DNA from: an uncultured bacterium
GTDB taxonomy: Bacteria > Cyanobacteriota > Vampirovibrionia > Gastranaerophilales > Gastranaerophilaceae
Length of the DNA stretch: 64,000 nt
Direction of reading: 5' to 3'
NCBI GenBank assembly: GCA_902777385.1
Contig: CACYTP010000010.1
Location: 1 to 64,000 of the forward strand
Under the pieces are notes generated by a model. That model made no database searches. It was not told where the DNA came from and saw only the letters and a list, made by a program, of their open reading frames with translations. Below, piece by piece: positions 5,468-37,506 of the stretch. A program made the position numbers and the translations under genes. How positions within the stretch are numbered: position 1 is the first letter of the stretch; every line of letters starts with the position of its first letter.

Positions 5468-5495
5468 TTGTAAAATTAAGAAAATCGTTTATAAT
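5468..5495 (+). promoter_or_regulatory. Promoter of pilin-like locus A
   Basis: TTGTAA (5468-5473) and TATAAT (5490-5495) are separated by 16 bases. Locus B has an equivalent pair with the same spacing in front of the same ribosome binding site and start. Confidence 0.6.
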
Positions 5496-5527
5496 TATAA
5501 TATGTAAAAGCCACGGAGGATGTTATC

Positions 5528-5572
5528 ATGATTGGATTTAAGTATGGGGGGGGGGGGCAAACCCTCTTGTAG
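5528..5572 (+). CDS. Short leader frame MIGFKY-Gly4, out of frame with pilin A
   Basis: A strong ribosome binding site GGAGGA (5515-5520) sits seven bases before ATG 5528. As sequenced, this ATG reads MIGFKY, four Gly codons made by the G run, QTLL and a stop at 5570. With 11 or 14 Gs instead of 12, the same ATG would read straight into the pilin frame (GGGGKPSCSKGLRSF...). It is best seen as the switched-off 5' end of the pilin gene rather than an independent peptide. Confidence 0.6.
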   Translation: MIGFKYGGGGQTLL

Positions 5573-6587
5573 CAAGGGTTTACGGAGTTTTATAGCTGAG
5601 AAGTTCAGCTGTTTTGGAATAGGAAATATGCCCTCTACCGTCGGGAGAGGGTTGAAAATCAACTTGAGCAAAGCGAAAGTCAGATTTTCGGGTGAGGGGT
5701 CAGACCTTTCTGATAGTGTTAAATCTTTAGTATCAACAGCCGAAAAAACGGCTGGATTGCCACGGTCGCAAGGCTACTTGCTCCCTCGCAATGACATGCG
5801 GAAAGCTGCATTTACCCTAGCCGAGGGTGCTGCACACGTTGCTCAGGCTGCAAAGCCTCGTCGTGCCGCCTTTACGTTGGCAGAAGTTTTAATCACCCTC
5901 GGGATAATCGGAGTAGTTGCAGCGATGACTTTGCCTACGTTAATTCAGAATTACCAAAAGCAAGTATATTTAAATCAATTAAAAAAGAACTATGCAATTA
6001 TAACTCAAGCAGTTTCTATGTTGAAAGCCGAATACGATGGGATTGATCCTGTGCAAATGCCGTTTTGCTATAAACTATGGAATCATGAAAAATTTTTGGA
6101 TGTGCAAAAGTTTGCCAATGCAATAACGAAATATCTTCCGGCTGATTCTGTCAAAGAGGATTCTGCAAGGAAGATGTGTTTTGATGACCCTGCAAAATAT
6201 CGTATAACAGATATGGGAGGCTCAAATTATGCACCTGTAAAGATGAATGATAATTGGGCTTATACTTGGCATTTTAATAATGGAGCTTGTGTGTCGTTTG
6301 TCCATGATGGAATTTGGGATTGGACAGACAGTGCTAAAAATGCCTTTATAATTGATGTAAATGGTTCTGATAGAAATCCAAACAGAATTGGCAGAGATAT
6401 TTTTTTCTTTGTGTTAAAGCCTGATGGGGCTTTACTTCCTATGGGCTATTGGTATTCTAAAGAGGAGTTTGAAAATGCGTGGGGTGAGGGATGCAGAAAA
6501 GACGGAAGAGGAGCAGGGCAGGGATGTTCGCGTCGTATTATGGATGCAGGTTGGGCATTTCCAAAGGATTACCCTTGGCCAAAATAA
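5532..6587 (+). CDS. Pilin-like protein, locus A, with long repeat-built leader and G-run switch
   Basis: The pilin frame is open from 5532 to 6587, but its only well-supported start (ATG 5528) is one base out of frame because of a 12-G run. TTG 5532, ATG 5544 or ATG 5796 (MRKAAFTLAE) are poorer alternatives without a good ribosome binding site. In the fused state the leader would be about 114 residues. It contains a dispersed palindromic element (5630-5700), the GLPRSQGYLLPRNDM element (5750-5797) and an extra FTLAE cassette. The usable prepilin site is A/FTLAEV with Phe codon 5871, giving a mature protein of about 238 residues with a DVNGSDRNPN loop, cysteines and the family ending GWAFPKDYP. 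It is a paralogue of the genes at 1-786 and 36450-37481. Confidence 0.75.
   Translation: MDLSMGGGGKPSCSKGLRSFIAEKFSCFGIGNMPSTVGRGLKINLSKAKVRFSGEGSDLSDSVKSLVSTAEKTAGLPRSQGYLLPRNDMRKAAFTLAEGAAHVAQAAKPRRAAFTLAEVLITLGIIGVVAAMTLPTLIQNYQKQVYLNQLKKNYAIITQAVSMLKAEYDGIDPVQMPFCYKLWNHEKFLDVQKFANAITKYLPADSVKEDSARKMCFDDPAKYRITDMGGSNYAPVKMNDNWAYTWHFNNGACVSFVHDGIWDWTDSAKNAFIIDVNGSDRNPNRIGRDIFFFVLKPDGALLPMGYWYSKEEFENAWGEGCRKDGRGAGQGCSRRIMDAGWAFPKDYPWPK
5546..5557 (+). repeat. Run of 12 G in the leader of locus A
   Basis: Twelve consecutive G lie 18 bases after the A of the start codon, followed by a small hairpin (AAACCCT with AGGGTTT). The run sets the reading frame between the start and the pilin. Homopolymer length can also be misassembled. 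Confidence 0.85.
5630..5700 (+). repeat. Composite palindromic element inside the coding leader of locus A
   Basis: It starts with a palindrome (CCCTCTACCG/CGGGAGAGGG) and ends with TTCGGGTGAGGGGT. The same two blocks in the same order and similar spacing occur inside a different gene (63797-63864, opposite strand). The palindrome alone recurs at 61561-61583. Confidence 0.6.
5750..5797 (+). repeat. Dispersed GTCATTGCGAG/GGCAATCC-type element, second copy
   Basis: Over 48 bases it is nearly identical to 51-98 and 36637-36684, and translates in frame as AGLPRSQGYLLPRNDM in the pilin leader. Confidence 0.75.
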
Positions 6588-6647
6588 GCAATACAACCTA
6601 ATGTTTTTATAAAAATTAAATAATAAGAATTATTAAGAAAAATTTAC

Positions 6648-36417: not shown

Positions 36418-36468
36418 GATAATGTACAAAAACCACGGAGGATATTATCATGATTGGATTTAAACATA

Positions 36469-36479
36469 GGGGGGGGGGG
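36469..36479 (+). repeat. Run of 11 G in the leader of locus B
   Basis: Eleven consecutive G follow ATG 36450 after 18 bases, at the same place as the 12-G run of locus A. A hairpin (AAATCCT with AGGATTT) follows, with base changes that keep pairing relative to locus A. Confidence 0.85.
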
Positions 36480-36530
36480 TAAAATCCTCTCATAGTAAGG
36501 ATTTACAAGATTTCACTAATGCGGACACAT

Positions 36531-36576
36531 GTCATTACGAGCAAATCAAAGGTTTGATTTGCAACGTAATCCAGCC
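36531..36576 (+). repeat. Dispersed GTCATTACGAG/GTAATCCAGCC element, inverted partner
   Basis: This is the same repeat family as 36637-36684 but in opposite orientation: GTCATTACGAG ... AACGTAATCCAGCC. The two copies form an inverted pair within the leader-coding region of locus B. Confidence 0.65.
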
Positions 36577-36636
36577 ATTAGATTACAGAAATATAAATAA
36601 AAAAGCGAGGCAAAATTTCTCAGTTATTGCAAAAAC

Positions 36637-36684
36637 GGCTGGATTGCCACGGTCGCAAGCCTACTTGCTCCCTCGCAATGACAT
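36637..36684 (+). repeat. Dispersed GTCATTGCGAG/GGCAATCC-type element, third copy
   Basis: Over 48 bases it is nearly identical to 51-98 and 5750-5797, here encoding AGLPRSQAYLLPRNDM in the pilin frame. Confidence 0.75.
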
Positions 36685-37506
36685 GGGTAGGAAAGCCGCT
36701 TTTACTCTTGCCGAAGGTGCTACGCATGTAGCTCAGTCTGCAAAGTCTCGTCGTGCCGCCTTTACACTTGCAGAAGTCTTAATCACACTCGGTATAATTG
36801 GAGTGGTCGCTGCAATGACGTTGCCTGCATTAATTCAAAATTATCAAAAACAGGTTCTATTGACCCAGTTAAAGAAAAATTATGCAATCTTAAATCAAGC
36901 AGTTCAGATGCTCAAGGCACACAACGATAATGTTGACCCTGTTCAAATATCTTCAATTACCTTGCAAAGAAATGCAAATACCAGATACATAAATACCGCA
37001 GCTTTTGGACCTGAGTTTGCGAAGTATTTGCCTACTGATTGGCATAGACTTGATCCGGGAGGGTATTGCTTGTTATAAAGATAGTGCTTCTATTGATGTT
37101 AAGAGGGCTGATGGTGCACCTTTTACCGGTGGCACTGTATATCAGACACATCATTCAGATGATTATGTTTGGCATTTAACAAATGGGGCTTGTGTTCAAT
37201 TACAAGAACGAGATAATAATTACTGGAACGGACTTTATAATCAAAGGAATTGGTTTATTGTTGATGTAAATGGTACGGATAAGCGTCCAAATCAGCTTGG
37301 TAAGGATATTTTTACATTCGACTTCATGCCTGACGGCAGAGTGCTTCCTGATGGTCATGACAGGACTGCTCAACAAAGGGCAACAGATTATGAAAGATGT
37401 AATTGGTACGGTTCTTATTGTGCATTTGAAATTATAAATGCAGGCTGGCAGTTCCCAAAAAATTATCCGGTAAGGTTCTAATATTATACAAATTTTACAA
37501 ATTCTG

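Follow-up and report, generated by a model that had tools for sequence, protein, structure and literature searches.

A 12-G tract in a pilin leader cassette as a probable, default-OFF phase-variation switch in an uncultured Gastranaerophilaceae bacterium

Poly-G tracts that switch the reading frame of surface genes are well known. The question raised by the present locus, which lies in a 64,000 nt stretch of an uncultured Gastranaerophilaceae genome (hereafter the window), is whether a run of 12 G residues behind the start codon of a pilin gene serves as such a switch. A previous, sequence-only reading had listed a GGAGGA motif, an ATG at 5528, the 12 G and a stop at 5570, and direct reading confirmed all four. 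A sigma-70-like promoter (TTGTAA, 16 nt, TATAAT; 5468–5495; all features are on the forward strand) was read from the sequence, and its −10 element (TTTATAAT / TGTTATAAT) was found again in other copies of the cassette described below. It is followed by the Shine–Dalgarno sequence GGAGGA (5515–5520), at the usual 8 nt spacing from ATG 5528. As read with 12 G (5546–5557), this ATG opens only the short ORF MIGFKYGGGGQTLL (5528–5572), which ends at TAG 5570–5572. The +1-shifted frame, by comparison, stays open beyond the tract as far as 6587, with 342 codons past the tract and a prepilin motif 104 codons past it. The tract is thus OFF by +1, and our verification of the frames bore out the claim that one G fewer or two more (11 or 14 G) would join ATG 5528 to the pilin frame of 350 residues.

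The stop-free leader in the pilin frame (KPSCSKGLRSF...KPRRAA; 5559–5870), which shows protein-level constraint across copies, is followed by a type IV pilin-like protein (FTLAEVLITLGIIGVVAA through to the stop; 5871–6587) that scored over the cut-off for both Pfam N_methyl (PF07963) and NCBIfam TIGR02532. This protein meets the criteria for a type IV prepilin (leader, G/A before the F, E at +5 and a hydrophobic helix), and its single-sequence structure model, made without an alignment, was poor (pLDDT 44). Within the leader we found an interspersed repeat (GCTCCCTCGCAATGAC; 5780–5795, with further copies at 81–96 and 36667–36682), an internal ATG (5796–5798) that is a rival start, and an additional copy of FTLAE (5811–5825). 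The latter is perhaps the relic of an earlier cassette–pilin junction, and the same FTLAEGATHVAQ relic is present in several cassette copies. ATG 5528 had been put forward as the start with the best ribosome-binding site of the locus, and this held: GGAGGA precedes it, whilst the bases before ATG 5796 (GCTCCCTCGCAAT) contain no such site.

A search of the source genome (2.32 Mb, 37 contigs) with positions 5500–6600 returned 77 matching pieces, among which query positions ∼7–336 recur as a single block. The repeated 5′ cassette, comprising promoter, ribosome site, ATG, G-tract and coding leader, therefore spans approximately 5503–5835, its best copies being 88–92 % identical. The genome contains 35 runs of 10–13 G and none of exactly 9, and 34 of the 35 lie in cassette context, nearly all upstream of type IV prepilin genes. 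In these 34 the layout is a ribosome site, an ATG (lost in two), ∼6–8 codons, G10–13 and then TAAAATCCTCTCGTAG or a near variant; a strong ribosome site was found at the cassette ATG of 19 of 21 loci. Only two runs of at least 9 G occur in the window, and the seven overlapping 9-G matches that they give compare with 0.05 expected by chance, which meets the homopolymer criterion for a poly-G contingency locus (∼8 or more, far above chance). The other run belongs to a second cassette (36437–37054; GGAGG 36437, ATG 36450, 11 G at 36469–36479, pilin motif 36761), where we noted both an OFF tract and, near 37055–37070, a break in the pilin frame (36437–37469 inspected). A third cassette-type pilin (36–786, motif at 115) has lost its upstream part to the contig end. 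The same genome also encodes pilus machinery, with one prepilin peptidase N domain and six T2SSE-type ATPases over the cut-off. The pilin signature points to Gastranaerophilales (Vampirovibrionia), and the best PDB match of RpoA, 8syi, is cyanobacterial; as evidence of lineage this is weak. The sole G-tract outside a cassette (L063; G000:C14:30819) is a run of 10 G where a TonB-domain protein has its signal peptide; the assembled length is in frame. As a separate observation, cassette leaders, including those of L022, L042 and L060, carry in-frame interspersed repeats (GCTCCCTCGCAATGAC, HPELVSGSS and HPEDNMSLRGAESS peptides). Rickettsia palindromic elements are likewise interspersed repeats that lie inside genes and are translated in frame; this is a resemblance only.

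Across the family, the pattern of a ribosome site, 8–38 nt and G10 was detected in 78 of 288 genomes and 17 of 41 genera, far in excess of a reversed-pattern control in tract-rich genomes. Matches with at least 9 G numbered 69 in G014, 65 in G227, 57 in G012, 46 in G011, 37 in G021 and 36 in G093, and the genera share the cassette layout whilst differing in their flanks, which are unrelated. Tract-rich genomes gave 58, 51, 92, 84 and at least 150 N_methyl hits, compared with 6, 6, 9 and 9 in four tract-free genomes. The link between tracts and repertoire size is not strict, however, as genome G018 has 93 N_methyl hits and no G10 match, the two loci read there (L212 and L218) having 6 and 8 G. 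A different arrangement was seen in genus g10 (G227 and G021; for example, L185, L188 and L238), where a G11 tract lies in a short ORF (MQK..IDRIS-GGG) that is mostly unfused, and the downstream pilin starts at an ATG of its own behind a separate ribosome site; the role of a tract in such a separate ORF is unexplained.

In order to count frame states, we considered loci with an open leader fused in frame to the pilin and without an internal ribosome site plus ATG, sampling loci rather than scoring every one per genome. At the 103 loci so defined, 14 tracts were ON, 56 were +1 and 33 were +2, giving a total of 89 OFF. ON loci were present in seven genomes, and none was found among the 19 scored in the source genome; L013, a candidate there, was dropped as its cassette ATG is lost. 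The ON/+1/+2 counts over all fused loci were 0/16/3 in the source genome, 5/14/4 in its sister species G004, 2/7/1 in G012, 3/2/1 in G011, 0/0/10 in G048 and 1/1/9 in G093. The ON share is below one in three (P about 4e-6, a value that is too small, as the copies are related and not independent). The prevailing OFF sign varies by genus, being mostly +1 in that of the window, and a +1 rule across all genera was therefore rejected. At the focal locus and the 19 loci scored in its genome, one length class yields a full-length open ORF and the other classes stop early; in the canonical cassette the OFF frames meet TAA at the tract end or TAG a few codons later. Four interrupted tracts (L014, L024, L030 and L034) are all in the +1 frame and, if the model holds, are locked OFF. 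Relics locked in frame, MMIAFKHIDGGGTHHHYNKSFKG^FTLAE at L227 in the source genome and MTIFASKVNGGDVASHSRCFNG^FTLAE at L263 in G007, lend support, as far as sequence alone can, to the in-frame leader as the productive reading. We read this distribution as default OFF, although a recoding site with a constantly out-of-frame length would give a similar picture and cannot be separated on these counts.

Tract length appears to evolve much faster than the flanks, a condition that was met for paralogous copies only. Of 19 pairs whose 60 flanking bases differ at two positions at most, nine had tracts of unequal length (1/3 in the source genome, 7/14 in G004 and 1/2 in G011/G012), and L088 (11 G, OFF) and L104 (9 G, ON) are separated by a single flank-base difference. 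Two orthologous pilins that are OFF in the source genome are ON in G004 (L010/L081 and L057/L085; 92 % and 94.7 % DNA identity), but the members of each pair carry different 5′ cassettes. Our comparison set comprised one genome per species, without near relatives, reads or a second strain, and searches of genome and viral contigs gave no usable match for a conspecific comparison. All the relatives that were tested have MutS, and loss of mismatch repair as the cause of tract variation was rejected for this reason.

The importance of the tract depends on which start codon is used, a choice that we based on a simple ribosome-site rule. Were the cassette ATG and tract irrelevant and the pilin translated from ATG 5796 or another internal start, the G-run would be a passive part of the repeat; in-frame ATGs downstream of the tract at 15 of 21 loci in the source genome would allow this, as would the pilins of genus g10 with their own ribosome sites. 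At 14 of those 15 loci, however, no strong ribosome site precedes the internal ATG, whereas five of seven plain pilins of the same genome have one, and 34 of 98 scored loci have no internal ATG, GTG or TTG whatsoever. In compact copies FTLAE follows 3–15 codons past the tract with no intervening ATG, such that the prepilin leader requires the cassette ATG to be read through the G-run. Moreover, the post-tract frame (K-S-S-R-S-K-G) runs on into the pilin, and single-base differences between nearest leaders fall at codon positions 1, 2 and 3 of the pilin frame in a ratio of 26/33/95 (80 synonymous, 74 not). This third-position bias indicates that the leader is, or formerly was, translated, and its codon pattern thus places it under protein-level constraint. 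ATG 5796 was consequently rejected as the main start, as it lacks a ribosome site and compact copies have no internal ATG, and we consider internal initiation in general to be very improbable. Less credible still is initiation at TTG 5532, which lies in the pilin frame at 12 G, 12 nt past the ribosome site, and would make 12 G the ON state. It is ATG 5528 that has the usual 8 nt spacing, and an equivalent codon is absent from other cassettes, the +1 cassettes ATGAGCGAATTTACACCTA and ATGACAGTATTTCAACCTA of G004 lacking ATG, GTG and TTG upstream of the tract in that frame; TTG 5532 was rejected on this ground.

We are left with phase variation as the reading: the 12-G run would switch the pilin gene on and off, with OFF as the default, and on sequence evidence we consider this probable, although switching was not observed. 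The cassette would bring a promoter and a ribosome site together with the ATG and the first part of the prepilin leader, within which the G-tract lies. With 12 G, translation from ATG 5528 would stop after 14 codons and give no pilin; at 11 or 14 G it would continue through MIGFKYGGG..KPSCSKG... into the pilin, and prepilin peptidase would cut the leader before the F of FTLAEV. Slipped-strand mispairing would change the state by adding or removing single G residues and, if the ∼34 cassettes of the genome flip independently with OFF as the usual state, cells would vary in the few pilins made. Anatomy, frames, conservation, length differences between close copies and leader constraint are observed, whilst mutation rate, reversibility, the effect on expression and display on pili are inferred. 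Against phase variation stand the want of reads or a second strain, so that no change in length has been seen within a strain, the uniform 10 G of all ten tracts read in G048, the MutS of all tested relatives, which would slow slippage, the mostly unfused tract ORF of genus g10 and the non-independence of related copies. So does the finding that none of 19 loci in the source genome is ON and that interrupted tracts are also +1, which recoding could equally produce. In programmed recoding, polymerase slippage or ribosomal frameshifting at an out-of-frame G-run would yield a small, fixed in-frame share, and all cells would make a little of many pilins; the prevalence of OFF frames (89/103, mostly +1 in the genus of the window), the +1 retained by interrupted tracts and the uniformity in G048 fit this. 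Yet 0, +1 and +2 states all exist with a genus-dependent usual sign, lengths differ between near-identical copies and the interrupted tracts would no longer be slippery, and we judge recoding unlikely without dismissing it. That the lengths merely reflect homopolymer errors of sequencing or assembly, the true tracts being in frame or fixed, is scarcely tenable: the source sequence is probably a consensus of metagenome type, runs of G are prone to error and several contigs terminate within a cassette, but the tract occurs in one context in 78/288 family genomes, and accurate Illumina reading of short poly-G tracts has been reported (PMC6321876). Slipped-strand switching, as the sequence-only reading had suggested, remains the best-supported explanation given a repeated cassette, one type of neighbouring gene, ON and OFF examples, variable lengths in near-identical copies, locked-in-frame relics and constrained leader codons; the switching itself is an inference.

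The origin of the focal arrangement can be approached through the syntenic ortholog of the pilin in G004 (L262; 90 % protein identity), whose flanks match those of the focal locus at 85 % over 956 nt upstream and 86–94 % downstream. L262 is without a cassette and has an ordinary start, MSLKKA^FTLAEV, after GGAGG. The window segment 5422–5865 (breakpoints approximate), which contains the whole cassette, has no counterpart there and could not be aligned. Either a plain 5′ end at the focal locus gave way to the cassette, therefore, or G004 lost it; by inference, replacement seems likelier, as the cassette repeat is so abundant. Whether a portable, default-OFF switch cassette swaps the 5′ ends of ordinary pilins in several genera of a single bacterial family, turning constitutive expression into random display of a few of many, is a proposal to which we give even chances.

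Poly-G tracts average 15–18 per genome in meningococcus and gonococcus and 19 in N. lactamica (PMC5953494), and the median for Campylobacter jejuni is 20 phase-variable tracts per genome, with narrow lengths in C. jejuni/coli (52 % 9G, 30 % 10G; PMC6321876). The present tracts are like the C. jejuni contingency loci in that an in-ORF G-tract sets the frame, lengths are narrow and interrupted tracts occur in homologues (PMC6321876). They differ in their number (35 in the source genome and up to ∼69 in relatives, versus a median of 20), in an ON share of 14 % in cassettes, which is near neutral in C. jejuni, and in being confined, as cassettes, to one gene class and a single repeated cassette. 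Neisseria pilC, a pilus gene, likewise carries a homopolymer within its coding region (G 9–20; PMC5953494), but encodes an accessory protein in one or two copies, whereas cassette tracts lie in the pilin leaders of dozens of genes. The large pilin repertoire and the suspected recombination at a conserved pilin 5′ end (one locus examined) recall Neisseria pilE/pilS; unlike silent pilS donors, the cassette copies each come with a promoter, a ribosome site and a start. Compared with known poly-G switches, the present system stands out in that its tracts are more numerous, are confined to prepilin leaders, sit in a repeated cassette and are seldom ON. We found no paper on phase variation in Gastranaerophilales or Vampirovibrionia in a literature search that misses most subscription journals. 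If the proposed switch is real, a direct test is feasible in existing metagenome reads, and an uncultured lineage of probably non-photosynthetic gut relatives of the Cyanobacteria would possess one of the larger known sets of poly-G switches, spent almost wholly on pili. This would help to explain why some species carry 50 to 150 pilin genes, compared with 6 to 9 in close relatives.
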